The position numbers and the translations under genes were made by a program. From positions 806,001-870,000 of the forward strand of contig NZ_FCOP01000013.1 in NCBI RefSeq assembly GCF_900021175.1: a DNA stretch of 64,000 nucleotides, read 5' to 3'. Under the pieces are notes generated by a model. That model saw only the letters and a list, made by a program, of their open reading frames with translations, had not been told where the DNA came from and ran no database searches. This document shows, one piece after another, positions 4,726 to 16,022 of this stretch (the first letter of the stretch is position 1; each line of letters begins with the position of its first letter). The DNA comes from Pseudenterobacter timonensis. GTDB lineage: Bacteria; Pseudomonadota; Gammaproteobacteria; Enterobacterales; Enterobacteriaceae.

Positions 4726-6189
4726 ATGTTCAGGCAGTTGAAAAAAACGCTGGTTGCGACGCTTATCACCGCGCTGACGCTCGGTCAGACGTTACCTGCC
4801 TTCGCCGACTCGGCGGATACGTTGCCGGATATGGGAACCTCGGCAGGAAGCACGCTCTCTATCGGACAAGAGATGCAGATGGGCGACTACTATGTGCGCC
4901 AGCTTCGTGGCAGCGCGCCGCTGATTAACGATCCCCTGCTGGTGCAGTATATCAACACGCTGGGCATGCGCCTTGTCGCCCATGCCAACTCGGTGAAAAC
5001 CCCTTTTCATTTCTTTTTAATTAACAACGACGAAATCAACGCCTTCGCCTTTTTTGGCGGGAATGTCGTTCTGCATTCGGCGCTGTTCCGCTATTCCGAT
5101 AACGAGAGCCAGCTGGCCTCGGTTATGGCGCACGAAATCTCCCACGTTACCCAGCGTCATCTGGCGCGTGCGATGGAAGATCAGAAGCGCAGCGCGCCGC
5201 TGACCTGGGTAGGGGCGCTCGGCTCTATTTTACTGGCGATGGCCAGCCCCCAAGCCGGGATGGCGGCCCTGACCGGTACGCTGGCGGGCACCCGCCAGGG
5301 GATGATCAGCTTTACCCAGCAGAACGAACAAGAAGCGGACCGTATCGGTATTCAGGTGCTGCAGCGCGCGGGCTTCGATCCACAGGCGATGCCCACCTTC
5401 CTTGAGAAGCTGCTTGACCAGGCGCGCTACTCCACCCGCCCGCCGGAAATTTTGCTGACCCACCCGTTGCCGGAAAGCCGCCTCTCGGATGCGCGCAACC
5501 GCGCCAACCAGATGCGCCCGGTGGTGGTACAGTCGTCGCAGGATTTTTATATGGCGAAGGTGCGTACTCTGGGCATGTATAACTCAGGGCGCAACCAGCT
5601 CACCAGCGATCTGCTGGATGCGCTGGCAAAAGGCAACGTCCGCCAGCAGCATGCCGCGCAGTATGGCCGCGCCCTGCAGGCGATGGAAGCCAGCAAATAT
5701 GACGAAGCGCGCAAAGCTCTGCAGCCGCTGCTGGCCGCCGATCCCGGTAACCCCTGGTATCTTGACCTCGCTACCGACATCGATTTAGGGCAGCATAAAG
5801 CGACTGACGCTATCAACCGGCTGAAAGGGGCGCGCGATCTGCGCAACAATCCGGTGCTGCAGCTTAACCTCGCGAATGCCTACCTGCAGGGCGGGCAGCC
5901 GAAAGAGACGGCCGCCCTGCTCAACCGCTACACCTTCAATTATAAAGACGATCCAAACGGCTGGGATCTGCTGGCGCAGGCGGAAGGCCAGCTTGGCAAC
6001 CGCGATCAGGAGCTGGCGGCGCGCGCCGAGGGGCTGGCGCTGGCGGGCCGTCTCGACCAGGCCATCTCGCTGCTCAGCAGCGCAAGCTCGCAGGTGAAGC
6101 TGGGCAGCCTGCAGCAGGCACGTTACGACGCCCGTATCGATCAGCTTCGCGATCTGCAGCAGCGCTTCCGCCCGTATGAAAAGATGTAA
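4726..6189 (+). CDS. bepA: BepA, periplasmic M48 metalloprotease/chaperone
   Basis: 487 residues, identical in length to E. coli BepA (YfgC). After a cleavable signal (cleavage near AFA-DS, about residue 27) comes an M48 zinc-protease domain with HEISH (H136, E137, H140), a third ligand E201 in NEQEAD and regulatory H246. A C-terminal TPR repeat domain (about 310-480) contacts the Bam complex. BepA helps LptD mature and degrades stalled outer-membrane proteins. All active-site residues are present. It is followed 12 bp later by yfgD. Confidence 0.97.
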
Positions 6190-6201
6190 TAAGGAGAACG
6201 C

Positions 6202-6558
6202 ATGACCGACGCGGTAAAAATCTATCATAACCCCCGCTGCTCCAAGAGCCGCGAAACGCTCAACCTGCTGCAGGCGAAGGGCGTTGAGCCTGAAGTGGTG
6301 CTCTACCTGGAGACGCCGCCGGATGCGCAAACTATCCGCCAGCTGCTTACGATGATGGAGATGGGCAGCGCGCGTGAACTGATGCGTCAGAAAGAGGATC
6401 TGTATAAATCACTCAACCTGAACGACACGCATCTTAATGAAGATCGGCTCATTCAGGCCATGGTCGAGAATCCAAAGCTGATTGAGCGCCCGATTGTGGT
6501 GGCGAACGGCAAGGCGCGCATTGGCCGTCCGCCGGAAGATGTGCTTGAGATTATCTAA
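6202..6558 (+). CDS. yfgD: YfgD, ArsC-family thioredoxin-fold protein
   Basis: 118 residues, one fewer than E. coli YfgD. It belongs to the ArsC/Spx family: HNPRCSKSRETLNLL carries the conserved Cys at the end of the first strand, and IERPIVVANGKARIGRPPED is the typical C-terminal signature. A glutaredoxin-coupled arsenate reductase activity is suggested by the family but not established for YfgD. AAGGAG lies five bases before the ATG. It is probably co-transcribed with bepA. Its last four bases overlap the end of the convergent downstream gene. Confidence 0.93.
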   Translation: MTDAVKIYHNPRCSKSRETLNLLQAKGVEPEVVLYLETPPDAQTIRQLLTMMEMGSARELMRQKEDLYKSLNLNDTHLNEDRLIQAMVENPKLIERPIVVANGKARIGRPPEDVLEII

Positions 6559-7379
6559 CTATTACGCCGCAGCGCTTCCAGAAACGCCTGCGGCGTACTC
6601 TCTCCCAGTTTTTTCTGCGCCTTTTCCCGGTTGTAAAACTCACAGAGCTGGATCAACAGCTCGCCCGTCGGCTCACTGTTCAGCCGCGGAATGATTTCGC
6701 GTAACGGCACAGCGACCTGAACGGCACGATATTGCTGCGGATGCACTTTCACACTGACGATGCGCTCCGGCAGTTTCACCTCCAGGCCAAAAGTCTCAAC
6801 AGATTGAATATCAGCCGGGCACGCTTCCAGCAGGTCGTTCGTCCAGTGGGTCAGCAGTTGCGAAGAAATGCCCGCATAAAGCCGGGCATAGCACCAGCCG
6901 CTGACGGGTTCCCGCGCCCAGAGCAGATGCTGCTCCCCGCCATCGTCCATATGCAGCGACAGCGGCTGATGATACAGCAGGAGTTTTTGCGGCACGATGC
7001 CCGCCTTTAGCGCCTTCTTACCCTGCAAAACCGCCCCTTTTTGTTTTACCGATGCCGGTTTAAGGTAGCGGTTGAGGGTTGCGCGGGAAACGGCGATCCC
7101 GAGCCCGTTATTGACCATCAGAAGCAGCTCGTCCAGCGGAGCGCCGGTAACCTCCCGCAGGGCATTTATCAGTGCCGCCTGATCTTGTCTCAACGCTTTG
7201 TGTATCACTTTTGGCGTAGCGTGGTTATCCGAAACCTGTTCGCGGTTGCGCCAGCGCCTGACGGTGGTGACCGAGATCCCCAGCTCAACCGCCAGCTCCC
7301 TGTCGCTTTTCTCTGACTGCTGAAGGTAGCGACGGATACGCGGCGTGGTGGTGGCATTGGCATGGAGTTTAATTTCCAT
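6555..7379 (-). CDS. Transposase-derived HTH protein (IS481-like, DDE triad lost), possible regulator
   Basis: 274 residues. An N-terminal HTH of transposase type is visible at about 8-50 (SDRELAVELGISVTTVRRWRNR). A second helical segment (APLDELLLMVNNGLGIAVSRATLNRYL, about 95-125) resembles the second HTH of IS481-family transposases. The rest keeps the outline of an rve integrase core: LHMDD where the first catalytic Asp belongs, VETFG where the family has TDNG, and the terminal YNREK...LGESTPQAFL matching the usual end. The second Asp is replaced and no catalytic Glu is evident, so transposition activity is unlikely. It is not flanked by obvious terminal inverted repeats. The intact frame and divergent placement next to a PTS operon suggest a domesticated DNA-binding protein; this role is inferred. 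Confidence 0.65.
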   Translation of the reverse strand: MEIKLHANATTTPRIRRYLQQSEKSDRELAVELGISVTTVRRWRNREQVSDNHATPKVIHKALRQDQAALINALREVTGAPLDELLLMVNNGLGIAVSRATLNRYLKPASVKQKGAVLQGKKALKAGIVPQKLLLYHQPLSLHMDDGGEQHLLWAREPVSGWCYARLYAGISSQLLTHWTNDLLEACPADIQSVETFGLEVKLPERIVSVKVHPQQYRAVQVAVPLREIIPRLNSEPTGELLIQLCEFYNREKAQKKLGESTPQAFLEALRRNS

Positions 7380-7434
7380 CGCAAGGATCTCCGGAACTAA
7401 TCTTATGAGATTTATAATGCGGCGGCGATTGCTT

Positions 7435-7484
7435 TGTGACCGATTTCACCTTTCGCTTGCCGCGCTTCACTGATAATCCACAGA
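7435..7484 (+). promoter_or_regulatory. Class II CRP-dependent promoter of the PTS-asparaginase operon
   Basis: TGTGACCGATTTCACC (7435-7450) matches the CRP half-sites TGTGA-N6-TCACA at 9 of 10 positions. A GATAAT -10 element follows at 7472-7477, so the start site is near 7484 and CRP is centred at about -41.5, the class II position. The overlapped -35 (CCTTTC) is poor, as expected for a CRP-activated promoter. Confidence 0.75.
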
Positions 7485-7526
7485 CATAACATAAACAACA
7501 CCCCTCATTCTTGTACGGAGTTCACA

Positions 7527-8846
7527 ATGAACAATGTTCTGGGATTTCTTGAAGCAAAACTGATGCCGCTGGCGGCGAAAACAGCTCAGCAGCGTCATCT
7601 CGGGGCCATTCGCGGGGCCTATGTTTCATTTATGCCGTTTATCATCGTCGGATCCATCCTGCTGGTTATCTCCTCCTTTCCGAATCAGGCCTATCAGCAG
7701 TTTATGTCTCAGGCCTTTGGTGAGAGCTGGAGCGCGATTATCGAGATCCCTTTCAACGCGGTGTTCTCGACCATGTCGCTGTTTATCAGCTTCCTGGTGG
7801 CGTTTCGCCTGGCGGAGCATTATGGCGAGGATCGTATCTCCTGCGGCATCCTGGCGCTGGTCGCCTTCCTGATCCTGACGCCCTTTATCAAAGTGGCGGA
7901 AAACGGCGGCATTACCGTCATACCGGTGGAGTGGATTGGCAGCAAAGGGTTGTTTGTGGCGATGATCGGTTCCCTGCTGTGGACGGAACTGTTCTGCTGG
8001 CTGAAGCGCAAAAAGCTGGTCATCAAAATGCCGGACGGCGTCCCTCCGGCGGTGCAGGAGTCGTTCGCGGCGCTGATCCCGGCCCTGCTGGTGATGATTC
8101 TGGTGCTTATAATTCGTATCGTCTTTGAAAACACCCACTACAACACTATCCATCAGTTTATTTATGAAGTCGTTGCCACGCCGGTGCGTCACTACGGCAC
8201 CTCATACTTCGGCGCGCTGATGACGGTATTCAGCATCACCATTCTGTGGTCGGTAGGTATTAACTCCGGCTCGATGATTAACGGCATCATTCGTCCGCTG
8301 TGGATGGAGAATCAGACCGACAATATCGCCGCGATTCAGGCGGGAACGACGCCCCCACACATTATCACGGAACAGTTTTTTGACATGATCTGGATGGGGG
8401 GCGCGGGGGCCACGCTGTCGCTGGTGATTGCGATGTTGATTTTCGCCCGCAGTAAAAACATGCGCGAAGTGGCGCGTCTCGGCGCCGGAGCATCGGTGTT
8501 TAACATCAATGAACCGATCCTGTTTGGCCTGCCGGTGATCATGAACCCCATCATGCTTATTCCATTCAACCTGGTGCCGCTGGTGCTGGTTACCGTGCAG
8601 TATGCGGCGATGAAAATTGGCGCGGTCGCCGTCACCACCGGGGTCTTTATCCCCTGGACCTTACCGCCGGTTATTAGCGGCTTTATCGTCACCGGGCATC
8701 TGAGCGGTAGCGTAATGCAGCTTATTAACCTGCTGATTGGCGCCATGCTGTACCTGCCTTTTATGCGTATCCTGGATAAACAGTACCGCGCCGCGGAGCT
8801 GACCACGATGACGCAAACCGACACCACCCTTGCAAAACAGGAGTAA
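7527..8846 (+). CDS. PTS sugar transporter subunit IIC, lactose/cellobiose family
   Basis: 439 residues, the size of ChbC-type permease subunits. The family signature NINEPILFGLPVIMNP is present at about 330-345, with about ten hydrophobic segments throughout and SVGINSGSMINGI in the middle. In this family IIC carries the sugar across the inner membrane while a separate IIB phosphorylates it. No IIA or IIB gene is in the window, so this permease must borrow them from elsewhere (for example a chitobiose or cellobiose PTS) or work unusually. GGAG precedes the ATG. It is first of three genes, with a 3-base gap to the next. The substrate is not shown directly; the following hydrolase suggests an N-acetylglucosamine-asparagine-type compound. 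Confidence 0.9.
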   Translation: MNNVLGFLEAKLMPLAAKTAQQRHLGAIRGAYVSFMPFIIVGSILLVISSFPNQAYQQFMSQAFGESWSAIIEIPFNAVFSTMSLFISFLVAFRLAEHYGEDRISCGILALVAFLILTPFIKVAENGGITVIPVEWIGSKGLFVAMIGSLLWTELFCWLKRKKLVIKMPDGVPPAVQESFAALIPALLVMILVLIIRIVFENTHYNTIHQFIYEVVATPVRHYGTSYFGALMTVFSITILWSVGINSGSMINGIIRPLWMENQTDNIAAIQAGTTPPHIITEQFFDMIWMGGAGATLSLVIAMLIFARSKNMREVARLGAGASVFNINEPILFGLPVIMNPIMLIPFNLVPLVLVTVQYAAMKIGAVAVTTGVFIPWTLPPVISGFIVTGHLSGSVMQLINLLIGAMLYLPFMRILDKQYRAAELTTMTQTDTTLAKQE

Positions 8847-8849
8847 AGC

Positions 8850-9794
8850 ATGTGGGGAATTATCGCAACCTGGCGAATGGCGCTTGAAGGGGTAACAGAG
8901 TCTGCGTCTGCCCTGGCGGCGGGAAAACCAGTCGCTGCGGCGGTAGTGGACGCCGTTGCCGCCGTGGAGGACTTCCCGCTGTATAAATCCGTCGGCTACG
9001 GCGGGCTGCCTACCGAGAACGGTGAGGTGGAGCTGGACGCGGCGTATATGGACGGCGACACGCTGGCGTTCGGCGCCGTCGGCAATCTGGTGGATATCGC
9101 CAACCCGGTGCGCGTGGCGCACGCGCTCAGCCGTCAGCGCTACAACAGCCTGCTGGTCGGCCAGGGCGCGCGCGAATGGGCGCTGAGCCAGGGATTTGCC
9201 AACAAAACCATGCTCACGGATCGCGCCATGCAGCACTATCGCAAGCGTTGCCGGGAGACGCTGGATAAGGGGTTAAGCCCCTACGACGGACATGACACGG
9301 TCGGCATTATCGGTCTCGATAAACAGGGCTCGATGAGCGTCGCCACCTCCACCAGCGGCCTCTTTATGAAAAAACGCGGTCGCCTCGGTGACTCGCCGAT
9401 TATCGGCTCCGGCTTTTATTGCGACAGCGAAACCGGCGCAGCCACCGCCACGGGCGTCGGCGAAGATCTGATGAAAGGCTGTACCAGCTACGAAATTGTG
9501 CGTCGGATGGCACAAGGGATGACGCCGCAACAGGCGGCGGATTCGGTGGTGTTCGAGCTGGAAGATAAGCTGATGTCACGCTTTGGTCGCGCGGGCGATC
9601 TCTCGGTCGTGTGCATGAACAACCAGGGTGAATTTGGCGCGGCGACCAACATCAAAACCTTCTCGTTTGTGGTGGCGACGGCTCGCCAGTCCCTCACCGT
9701 TTTCCGTACCGAACGCCTGCGGGAGAAAACGCACTATCACGCGGTGGATGAGGAGTGGATGCAGGCTTATGCCGCGCGGATCCGCGCCCATTGA
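8850..9794 (+). CDS. Glycosylasparaginase (N4-(beta-N-acetylglucosaminyl)-L-asparaginase)
   Basis: 314 residues, an Ntn-hydrolase of the aspartylglucosaminidase family. The pattern GHDTVGIIGLD carries the nucleophile T150, which in the family becomes the N-terminus of the beta chain after self-cleavage at D149-T150. GRLGDSPIIGSGFY and ATATGVGEDLM are the conserved substrate-binding motifs. Known members split GlcNAc-Asn into aspartate and 1-amino-GlcNAc. No signal peptide is visible (it begins MWGIIATWRMALEG), so it should act in the cytoplasm, on material delivered by the PTS permease encoded 3 bp upstream. The exact substrate, possibly phosphorylated, is inferred. Confidence 0.88.
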   Translation: MWGIIATWRMALEGVTESASALAAGKPVAAAVVDAVAAVEDFPLYKSVGYGGLPTENGEVELDAAYMDGDTLAFGAVGNLVDIANPVRVAHALSRQRYNSLLVGQGAREWALSQGFANKTMLTDRAMQHYRKRCRETLDKGLSPYDGHDTVGIIGLDKQGSMSVATSTSGLFMKKRGRLGDSPIIGSGFYCDSETGAATATGVGEDLMKGCTSYEIVRRMAQGMTPQQAADSVVFELEDKLMSRFGRAGDLSVVCMNNQGEFGAATNIKTFSFVVATARQSLTVFRTERLREKTHYHAVDEEWMQAYAARIRAH

Positions 9795-9800
9795 GGAGTC

Positions 9801-11228
9801 ATGATGATCACGTATCAGTTTATCAGCGCGCTTTCAGAGGCAAAGCCGCAAAGCCATTTGATTGCGCCCGCTTCCAGCGCCCATTTACCGCAAAGCGCAC
9901 TTATCGCTGAAATGCGCCAGCAGAACAGCGTCGCGGACGCGCGCTTTGGCTGCGCACCGTTCGCCCGCATCACCCTGCTGCCGGATGCGCTCTGGCATGA
10001 CGCCCTGACCGAAGGGTTGCTTACCGCCCTGCGACCGCTGCTTGCCGCCCCCGTCAGCGCCGATATCGTGCTGGACGTAACGGATATTGATGAGGTGGTG
10101 CTGGCGCAGGTGCTGCGTTTTCTCTTTAACCAGGCACACAGACTGAGTGACCTGAAGCTGAAGAAAATGGAGGAATCAACGGTGCGTCTTACCCGTATCA
10201 CCGCCTTCTGCCTGCCGGAGCAGCAGGCGAAGCTGGAATCTCTCTTCCGCCAGCAGCAGGCCATTGCCCTCGGCATGATCGCGGCGCGTCGTCTGGCGGA
10301 TATCCCATCTGACCGCTGCACACCGCAGTTTATGGTGGAAGAGGCGCAAAAACTGTGTGCCGCGCTCCCTGCCCTGCGGTGTGAAGTGTTAAATGAAAAG
10401 CAGATCGTTGAGCAGGGGCTGGGGCTGCTGCACGCCGTGGGCAAAGGGGCGAGCTGTCCGCCACGTCTGCTGGCTATTCACTATGACGGCGTGTCTGACG
10501 GCCCGGTGCGCTGCTACGTAGGTAAAGGCATTACCTTTGACACCGGCGGCCTGTGGCTGAAAGAGGGCGCGGGCATGTACACCATGAAATATGACATGTG
10601 CGGGGCGGCTAATGTGCTGGGGTTGATGCTCACCGTGGCAGAGCTGGCGTTGCCCGTTCGCATCATGGGCGTGCTGGCTCTGGCAGAAAACGCCATCGGC
10701 CCGGACGCCATGCAGCCCGGCACGGTGGCGACAGCCTGCAACGGCACCACCGTTGAAATAAACAATACCGATGCGGAGGGCCGGCTGGTGCTGGCGGACG
10801 CCATCGCCTGGGCCAGCCAGCAGCACCCGAATGCCCGCTATATCATTGATATGGCAACGTTAACGGGCGCGGTCGTGAAGGCGCTGGGGTATGAACTGAG
10901 CGGGTTAATGACCCAGGATGAGCCGCTGCGGGAGGCGCTGACGCAGGCAGGAAAACGGAGCGGCGACGAGGTGTGGTCGCTGCCGCTGGACGCGCGGCTG
11001 AAAAAACAGACCGACAGCGCCATCGCCGACCTTTGCAACACGCCAGCCAACAATGCGGCAATCAGCGCGTCGGCGGCCTGGCTGTTGCACCATTTCTGTC
11101 CTCCGACGATCCCGTGGGCACATCTGGATATCAGCGGCACGGCGCTGTGGCGGGAGAACGGCAGGAGCGTGGCGTCAGGAAGGCCGATTCCGCTGCTGGT
11201 GGAGCACTTGCTGAGGGATTGTGCCTGA
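9801..11228 (+). CDS. M17 leucyl aminopeptidase-family metallopeptidase
   Basis: 475 residues. The C-terminal catalytic domain is intact: GKGITFDTGG (K242, D247), K254, MKYDMCGAA (D265) and NTDAEGR (D324, E326, R328) supply the two-metal ligands and the catalytic Lys and Arg known from E. coli PepA. The N-terminal domain (1-160) is divergent. It removes N-terminal amino acids from peptides in the cytoplasm. It is last in the PTS-glycosylasparaginase operon (6-base gap), so it may trim amino acids from imported glycopeptide-like substrates. This is a second M17 enzyme in the window besides pepB and is clearly not its recent duplicate. Confidence 0.9.
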   Translation: MMITYQFISALSEAKPQSHLIAPASSAHLPQSALIAEMRQQNSVADARFGCAPFARITLLPDALWHDALTEGLLTALRPLLAAPVSADIVLDVTDIDEVVLAQVLRFLFNQAHRLSDLKLKKMEESTVRLTRITAFCLPEQQAKLESLFRQQQAIALGMIAARRLADIPSDRCTPQFMVEEAQKLCAALPALRCEVLNEKQIVEQGLGLLHAVGKGASCPPRLLAIHYDGVSDGPVRCYVGKGITFDTGGLWLKEGAGMYTMKYDMCGAANVLGLMLTVAELALPVRIMGVLALAENAIGPDAMQPGTVATACNGTTVEINNTDAEGRLVLADAIAWASQQHPNARYIIDMATLTGAVVKALGYELSGLMTQDEPLREALTQAGKRSGDEVWSLPLDARLKKQTDSAIADLCNTPANNAAISASAAWLLHHFCPPTIPWAHLDISGTALWRENGRSVASGRPIPLLVEHLLRDCA

Positions 11229-11231
11229 CTT

Positions 11232-11417
11232 TTTCGCCCGGTGGCGGCTGCGCCTTACCGGGCCTACGAAAACCCACAGGTCCTGCAGGCCGGGTAAGGC
11301 GCAACCGCCACCGGGCCTACGAAAACCCACAGGTCCTGTAGGCCGGGTAAGGCGCAGCCGCCACCCGGCACAATTAACGCCCCTGCAGGCCGGGTAAGGC
11401 ACAGCCGCCACCGGGCA
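11232..11417. repeat. Cluster of four REP units (BIME) before hda
   Basis: Four copies of the GCCGGGTAAGGCGCAGCCGCCACCCGGC-type REP motif, in alternating orientation, are separated by near-identical linkers reading CCTACGAAAACCCACAGGTC and shorter variants. The array fills the gap between the convergent M17 gene and hda. No separate terminator is visible, so the REPs may protect both 3' ends. Confidence 0.9.
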
Positions 11418-11418
11418 A

Positions 11419-12120
11419 TTACAGCTTAAGGGTATCTTTGACGAACGGGATGGTCAGCTTGCGCTGGGCGGTAATGGAGGCGCGATCGAGCTGATCGAGC
11501 GTATCGAAAAGGGTGCGCATTTCACGATCGAGCCGCTTGAGCAGGAAACGGCCCACATCCTCCGGCAGTTCAAAGCCCCGCAGCCGCGCGCGCAGCTGGA
11601 GTGCCTGGAGCTTATCTTCGTCGGAGAGCGGCTGGAGCTTATAAATCTGCCCCCAGTCGAGGCGGGAGGCGAGATCCGGCAGGCCGAGATTGAGCTGGCG
11701 CGGCGGGCGATCGCCGGTGATCAGCAGACGCGTTTTACCCGATTCCAGAATGCGGTTATAGAGGTTGAAGATGGCCATCTCCCACGGCTCATCGCCTGAG
11801 ATACATTCGATATTATCGATGCAGACCAGGGAGAGCTGCTCCATGCCATCCAGCACTTCCGGTACGAACCAGGTGCGTTTATCCAGCGGCACATAGCCTA
11901 CCGCGTCGCCGCGCGCCGAGAGTTCCGCGCAGGCGGCATGCAGCAGGTGACTGCGCCCCGCCCCTTCGCGTGACCAGATATAGATGTATCCGCTGTGCTC
12001 CTGACGCAGCACGTTTTGCAGGGCAGCCAGCAAAGAGGGGTTATCCCCCGGCCAGAAACTGGCAAACGTTTCATCATCAGGAAGATAAAGAGGCAGAGAG
12101 AGCTGTGCCGGTCCGTTCAG
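11419..12120 (-). CDS. hda: Hda, DnaA inactivator (CTG start)
   Basis: 233 residues when read from a CTG codon. Hda is an AAA+ protein that, with DNA-loaded beta clamp, stimulates ATP hydrolysis by DnaA after replication initiation (RIDA). The N-terminal clamp-binding motif QLSLPL comes six residues in. Walker A is degenerate-type (REGAGRSH), the Walker B region reads LVCIDNIE and the arginine finger region is LASRL. The CTG at 12120 follows the Shine-Dalgarno GAGGT by four bases. E. coli Hda is also initiated at CUG and is also 233 residues. Upstream in-frame codons extend the frame but lack a better ribosome site. Confidence 0.93.

Positions 12121-14552: not shown

Positions 14553-16022
<1,470 letters not shown>

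Follow-up and report, generated by a model that had tools for sequence, protein, structure and literature searches.

A CRP-linked operon of Pseudenterobacter timonensis with a PTS permease, a glycosylasparaginase-type enzyme and an M17 peptidase: a candidate system for scavenging glycoprotein sugar-asparagine stubs

Bacterial use of N-acetylglucosaminyl-asparagine (GlcNAc-Asn) has precedents in the Bacillota. The known system nearest to the locus considered here is the ega locus of Enterococcus faecalis, which, in the accessible part of the source, comprises a glycosylasparaginase, the enzymes EIIB and EIIC of a lactose/cellobiose-type phosphotransferase system (PTS), a GntR regulator and a dipeptidase (PMC11160706); GlcNAc-Asn use is given in the title of the ega paper (Combret et al., 2024, as cited in PMC11160706). 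The nearest system with published biochemistry is the alf-2 cluster of L. casei. Its asparaginase AsnA2, as far as the available text describes it, is cytoplasmic and cleaves GlcNAc-Asn in unphosphorylated form and fucosyl-GlcNAc-Asn weakly; the authors proposed that the peptidase PepV releases GlcNAc-Asn from glycopeptides, and mutation of pepV did not abolish growth on the free glycoamino acid (PMC6960285). Here we analyse a three-gene operon in a 64-kb stretch of DNA (the window; contig NZ_FCOP01000013.1) from the 4.2 Mb genome of Pseudenterobacter timonensis, assembled in 13 contigs. Judged from its genes and promoter, we consider it likely that this operon serves the CRP-activated scavenging of sugar-asparagine stubs from N-glycoproteins, the likeliest substrates being GlcNAc-Asn and short peptides that carry it. 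An initial annotation had put forward a pathway of this kind and knew of no characterised system with such a gene set; the pathway idea was essentially right, and its novelty was overstated, the ega locus, in the part of its description available, being the precedent.

The three open reading frames (ORFs) all lie on the + strand. The first (7527-8846) encodes a 439-residue enzyme IIC of the lactose/cellobiose family (PF02378, PTS_EIIC), placed in that family by TIGR00410 with 441 bits against a cut-off of 236. It is followed after 3 bp by the gene of a 314-residue Ntn hydrolase of the cytoplasmic N4-(beta-N-acetylglucosaminyl)-L-asparaginase type (8850-9794; PF01112, Asparaginase_2), and this after 6 bp by that of a 475-residue peptidase of the M17, or leucyl aminopeptidase, family (9801-11228; PF00883). 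Upstream there is a CRP site recognised by its sequence pattern (TGTGACCGATTTCACC, 7435-7450, + strand) and a -10 hexamer GATAAT (7472-7477, + strand), with a predicted start near 7484; if transcription starts 7 nt 3' of the hexamer, as predicted, the CRP site would be centred at -41.5. Of 49 upstream regions, those of the window and of 48 Enterobacterales loci described below, 47 have the arms TGTGA-N6-TCACC without mismatch, L035 has one mismatch and Providencia (L062) a poor match, while the 6-base spacer is variable; a NATAAT hexamer is found at identical spacing to the CRP site in all 49, counting L034 and L035 as re-read. The exact arm pattern occurs once in the whole window, although with up to one mismatch allowed it is no commoner there than chance. 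A simple sigma-70 scan of positions 7300-11500 returned no -35/-10 pair, which would fit activator dependence. The gene spacing and the class II promoter described in the initial annotation are thus borne out, and the operon is predicted to be CRP-activated.

The genes also stay together in other genomes, as that annotation had required of its reading. When 84,980 species genomes were scanned with the asparaginase as the sole query, 200 relatives were found, the best 80 of which were analysed; 48 of these 80 are Enterobacterales-type loci, including one (L064) labelled Chryseobacterium but with Enterobacterales neighbours. In all 48, the IIC gene, the M17 gene and a divergently transcribed gene stand beside that of the asparaginase, the linkage of a glycosylasparaginase to a lactose-family IIC being that of the ega type. 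The operon occupies the site between bepA/arsC and hda in 42 of the 48, and other sites in L040, L043, L049, L060, L062 and L063. In an even draw of 246 genomes of the family, IIC and asparaginase occur in an identical set of 25 and in none of the remaining 221. The asparaginase was present in 8 of 345 genomes drawn earlier from the order, and 5,426 complete E. coli genomes gave no match at megablast level. The closest named loci are those of Enterobacter, and the window asparaginase shares 99% identity with its E. hormaechei counterpart. The operon genes are therefore supported, on linkage and co-occurrence, as one functional unit.

The catalytic features of the asparaginase are those of a glycosylasparaginase. 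Its best solved relatives are glycosylasparaginases (1p4k, E 1e-54), with the next group at 3.4e-34, and the beta chain of solved 1ayy begins at query residue 150. T150 (codon at 9297-9299, + strand) is thus the expected nucleophile, with self-cleavage predicted between D149 and T150; all 72 family members aligned have Thr at this position. The match to the mature enzyme begins at residue 4, leaving no room for a signal peptide. The intact nucleophile and the lack of a signal peptide, both asserted from the first inspection, are thus borne out. The sugar-side Trp W8 and the Asp-binding R178 and D181 are present, and PTS-linked members retain W8, T150, T168 (Ser in one), R178, D181 and G202. 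Equivalents in the Elizabethkingia enzyme, W11, R180 and D183 among them, are substrate-binding or activity-determining according to the accessible part of its description (PMC13204146). A different possibility is that the protein is a beta-aspartyl (isoaspartyl) peptidase or a general asparaginase handling damaged peptides, with the IIC serving an unrelated sugar. The fold is common to both types, annotation goes no further than the family, and the best NCBIfam match is the beta-aspartyl-peptidase model PRK10226; yet this match scores 116 bits, below the cut-off of 567, and the window protein falls outside the IaaA branch, the ranking of solved relatives just given points to glycosylasparaginases, the position of W8 is Leu or Ile in nine of nine isoaspartyl peptidases, and the genome has a separate isoaspartyl-peptidase-like gene whose product is 36% identical. 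Since the asparaginase-PTS link moreover spans phyla, we regard this possibility as very improbable; the assignment to the true glycosylasparaginase type is supported by the tree and by these residues.

The 45 PTS-linked asparaginases in a 66-member tree of the family cluster together (support 100/99), apart from exported glycosylasparaginases and from isoaspartyl peptidases. The Enterobacterales enzymes nest in a clade otherwise of Bacillota, and that of the window shares 57-62% identity with Bacillota members versus 34-40% with the exported enzymes found in its phylum, which suggests acquisition by horizontal transfer. Many exported members carry an N-terminal extension of at least 35 residues before the TW motif that looks like an export signal, whereas five PTS-type proteins compared have 10-18 residues there (ORF starts were set mechanically). 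The PTS clade is further marked by basic residues when set against 18 classic or exported enzymes, one of which (L126) clusters in the tree with isoaspartyl peptidases. R9, which with M10 immediately follows the sugar-side Trp, occurs in all 44 clade members with a residue at that position and in none of the 18; K46 is invariant in the clade (45/45), with no Lys and three Arg in the classic set; R125 is found in 45/45 versus 4/18, and Lys or Arg at 175 in 45/45 versus 1/18. A phosphorylated sugar would be the simplest reason for such clade-specific invariant residues, as they suggest, and a 6-phosphate substrate, one of the options raised in the initial annotation, thereby gains indirect support.

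How the sugar would be phosphorylated is less direct, because the operon, a point beyond the initial annotation, encodes neither IIB nor IIA, and none was found among the genes of the window. Both are likewise absent from 46 of the 48 named Enterobacterales loci. Complete operons in the order IIC, asparaginase, M17, IIB, IIA, with IIB and IIA adjoining M17, were found in seven relatives: L060 (Serratia), L062 (Providencia), two small genomes of the order (L103, L104) and three family genomes (L140, L141, L142); L102 has IIB only, and L143 and L144 have neither. These complete operons imply an ancestral operon with a whole PTS, from which IIB and IIA were lost in the window lineage; both must then act in trans. 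The permease itself is under strong constraint, as judged from codon positions: compared with L045, it differs at 3.9% of second and 36.5% of third positions. It is 34-35% identical to the three other lactose-family IICs of the genome. As a separate observation, the IIC matches in genomes G463 and G495 carry one stop each and seem to be decaying copies.

An alternative that keeps the same substrate dispenses with phosphorylation: after the loss of IIB and IIA, the IIC would act as a facilitator and the asparaginase on free GlcNAc-Asn. The near-general absence of IIB and IIA from these operons speaks for it, as does the activity of AsnA2 on the unphosphorylated compound in the available account (PMC6960285). 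Nonetheless, the basic residues of the clade are equally well conserved in the window group and in relatives whose operons encode a complete PTS, the IIC remains strongly constrained, and the genome offers three lactose-family IIB/IIA pairs from which a partner could come, namely ChbB/ChbA, a pair on contig C12 with its own IIC, and an orphan pair near rpoC. We therefore hold uptake without phosphorylation to be unlikely, and uptake with IIB and IIA provided in trans to be the better reading.

The orphan pair (G000:C7:257160-257765; as a locus G000:C7:257140-257766, equal to L098:8140-8766) stands alone between rpoC and a GGDEF gene, and a CRP-like sequence, TGTGATGCCTGGCACA, lies upstream of its IIB. 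Its IIB (at least 86% identity) is present in 22 of the 25 asparaginase genomes and in 30 of the other 221 family genomes; the pair is present in 45 of the 48 named genomes, the exceptions being L060 and L062, with their complete operons, and L048, with 2.8 Mb of sequence. The three asparaginase genomes without it (G455, G552, G495) all have IIB and IIA in the operon, a pattern confounded by kinship. As a control, another IIC without IIB and IIA of its own (G000:C11:390161-391504, equal to L101:5162-6508, near rsmC) was followed. It occurs in 51 of the 246 family genomes and in each of the 51 together with the orphan pair, a PTS split between two distant sites; the sole genome with the pair and without this IIC is 49% complete. 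The orphan pair was accordingly rejected as a dedicated partner of the window IIC, the C11 IIC being its better cognate, and sharing of the pair by both permeases is only possible. The operon-encoded IIBs of L060, L062 and L102-L104 share 47-49% identity with the orphan IIB and equally with ChbB, which singles out no partner; in the IIB tree the orphan is nearest to the operon IIBs (93/82).

The third gene product aligns to solved cytosol aminopeptidases (E 2e-84) and contains the M17 catalytic domain (PF00883, 349 bits against a cut-off of 25). The stretches KGITFDTGG, MKYDMCGA and NTDAEGR are intact in this alignment; we take them to hold the metal-ligand positions of the family, which agrees with the complete ligand set reported at the outset. 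By gene content, the M17 enzyme of Enterobacterales occupies the place of the unrelated M20 peptidase of Bacillota loci, and the recruitment of two unrelated peptidases can be taken as an argument that peptide trimming matters.

The proposed route thus runs as follows. The IIC, with IIB and IIA from elsewhere, would import GlcNAc-Asn, probably phosphorylating the sugar at C6 on the way; the M17 peptidase would trim extra residues where present, a step needed because a glycosylasparaginase requires that both the alpha-amino and the alpha-carboxyl group be free; the asparaginase, having cleaved itself ahead of T150, would split the amide to give aspartate and 1-amino-GlcNAc(-6-P), and the latter would lose ammonia to yield GlcNAc-6-P, which would enter the usual nag route. 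PTS uptake of a sugar-asparagine together with peptidase trimming, as first conceived for this locus, is a supported reading; the related L. casei cluster has been explained likewise in the part of the report available (PMC6960285). The substrate might instead be another glycosyl-asparagine, such as chitobiosyl-Asn, fucosylated GlcNAc-Asn or fructose-asparagine. Lactose-family IICs transport disaccharide-sized sugars, which speaks for this. So does the weak action of AsnA2 on fucosyl-GlcNAc-Asn, so far as its description is accessible (PMC6960285). Against this, the operon contains no fucosidase or glycosidase gene. The 6-phospho-beta-glucosidase gene at 14553-16016 is set apart from it by hda, uraA and upp, and in each genome in which it was called it adjoins upp too. 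Fructose-asparagine, named in the initial annotation, does not belong to the N4 amides, and nothing was found in its favour as a substrate. We consider another glycosyl-asparagine rather improbable, and GlcNAc-Asn remains the preferred substrate.

Several points weigh against the proposed GlcNAc-Asn route or temper its evidence. The clade-specific basic residues mark a single clade and so count as one evolutionary event, and Lys or Arg at 175 is also found in five of nine isoaspartyl peptidases. Since the window has no IIB or IIA, phosphorylation depends on a partner encoded elsewhere. In L. casei, according to the accessible text, uptake is by a permease of the major facilitator superfamily (MFS) and not by a PTS, and PepV is dispensable for growth. 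Among 32 Bacillota loci, 13 show no IIC in the stretch examined, and the Enterobacterales loci are related, so that the count of 48 in 48 overstates the number of independent events.

The divergent gene (6555-7379, - strand, 274 residues), which travels with the operon and was left out of the initial annotation, adjoins it not only in the 48 Enterobacterales loci but also in L102-L104 and L140-L144. It combines a helix-turn-helix N-terminus with a degenerate IS481-transposase-like body: the NCBIfam IS481 model is matched by 21 of 21 members (best E 2.1e-21) and helix-turn-helix families by 18 to 21 aligned members, and the N-terminal MxIKLHxNATTTP is invariant among members. The window member scores 39 bits against an IS481 cut-off of 224, below the curated score, which indicates a homologous remnant and not a transposase. 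No DNG- or ERxxxT-like block is kept at the presumed catalytic-triad positions of the family alignment, the gene evolves faster than those of the IIC and the asparaginase, and a search of solved structures with its profile gave no match up to E 0.1. A single IS481-derived gene is thus kept next to this metabolic operon at each of the Enterobacterales loci inspected, and it is probably, on this pattern, a captured transposase serving as the operon regulator. In L055, the divergent gene and that of M17 are each split in two pieces, as in a decaying copy.

The 32 Bacillota loci, several of them cut by contig ends and four (L065-L068) being copies from one strain, contain in the stretch examined a lactose-family IIC in 19, IIB in 20, IIA in 19, an M20 peptidase in 26, a GrdB-like protein in 18 and CutC in 21; a regulator like that of L089, with PRD and PTS_EIIA_2 domains, is present in nine. 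The gene order is GntR, dipeptidase, asparaginase, IIB, IIC, IIA in Enterococcus gilvus, and asparaginase, GntR, GrdB-like gene, IIC, dipeptidase in Latilactobacillus curvatus. The GrdB-like protein, of 173 residues (L089:7441-7962, L073:7425-7946, L136:8695-9219), matches glycine-reductase selenoprotein B (GRDB) in the first half of that protein only. In Clostridium sp. KNHs214 (L065, L066, L067, L068), the same asparaginase, CutC and IIA genes are found on four contigs, either as true duplicates or as assembly copies.

CutC has long been classed under copper homeostasis. In the 21 Bacillota loci (18 of 29 when one strain is counted once), its gene lies within 1.5 kb of that of the asparaginase on the same strand; it is also near eight of 17 exported-type asparaginases (flanks mostly about 1.5 kb), on the same strand in seven, adjoins the complete operon of L103, and stands between asparaginase and nagB in Hymenobacter. 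This vicinity is seen across Bacillota, Bacteroidota and Pseudomonadota, whether or not a PTS lies nearby in the stretch examined; examples are L089:10074-10817, L103:6679-7416, L138:3777-4493, L110, L111, L113, L115, L116, L117 and L124. The genome of the window has one CutC gene, away from the operon. The AsnA2 product, 1-amino-GlcNAc, is described in the available text as not metabolisable and as breaking down at acidic pH (PMC6960285), and CutC may, as a candidate by position, act on the glycosylamine product. A bolder proposal, which we advance only tentatively and as more doubtful than the route itself, would join these strands: PTS-linked asparaginases would be 6-phospho-glycosylasparaginases acting on GlcNAc-6-P-Asn and marked by invariant R9, M10, K46, R125 and K/R175, CutC would handle the unstable 1-amino-GlcNAc(-6-P), and Enterobacterales would have rewired the system with M17 for M20, a captured-transposase regulator and a borrowed IIB/IIA.

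Downstream of the M17 gene, positions 11236-11416 hold three directly repeated units, each about 50 nt long and with inverted arms, resembling repetitive extragenic palindromic (REP) repeats, followed by hda; an Rfam search of positions 6000-12000 gave no matches.

The operon would extend the scavenging of glycoprotein stubs from lactic acid bacteria and enterococci to relatives of Enterobacter, Klebsiella, Kluyvera, Citrobacter, Serratia and Providencia, and it yields a testable prediction on substrate phosphorylation. The recurrent adjacency of CutC and glycosylasparaginase, also where the short flanks examined show no PTS gene, provides a handle on the CutC reaction, and the operon is an example of a PTS permease that has survived the loss of its IIB and IIA.

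A literature search for the pathway or an Enterobacterales version of it found no title on an Enterobacterales operon, subscription papers being mostly beyond reach. Compared with the exported glycosylasparaginases (Elizabethkingia and the classic group), the window enzyme shares fold, nucleophile and catalytic residues at the 34-40% identity given above; those enzymes have N-terminal extensions and short flanks in which no PTS genes were seen, whereas the window clade lacks such extensions and carries R9, M10, K46, R125 and K/R175. The E. coli-type isoaspartyl peptidase IaaA has the same Asparaginase_2 fold, but lacks W8 and forms a separate deep branch. The alf-2 cluster of L. casei, in the accessible text, likewise pairs a cytoplasmic, self-processing glycosylasparaginase with a peptidase proposed as a glycopeptide trimmer (PMC6960285); it differs in its MFS permease, alpha-fucosidase AlfC, aspartate decarboxylase, sugar kinase and core-fucosylated substrate, and neither an MFS permease nor an alpha-fucosidase is present in the window operon. 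The ega locus, as far as its description is available, shares with the window operon a glycosylasparaginase, a lactose/cellobiose-family EIIC, a peptidase and a regulator, the last a candidate in the window. It is unlike the window operon in its EIIB, GntR regulator, dipeptidase and selenoprotein-B-like putative oxidoreductase; the window operon has no in-locus IIB or IIA, no M20-type dipeptidase with GntR regulator and no GrdB-like gene, and instead has M17, the IS481-like gene and a CRP class II promoter. New here are M17 in place of the M20 dipeptidase, the IS481-derived neighbour as candidate regulator, the loss of IIB and IIA, and the recurrent linkage of CutC to glycosylasparaginase. On these comparisons, the operon is most likely a distinct proteobacterial version of the GlcNAc-Asn pathway known in Enterococcus.

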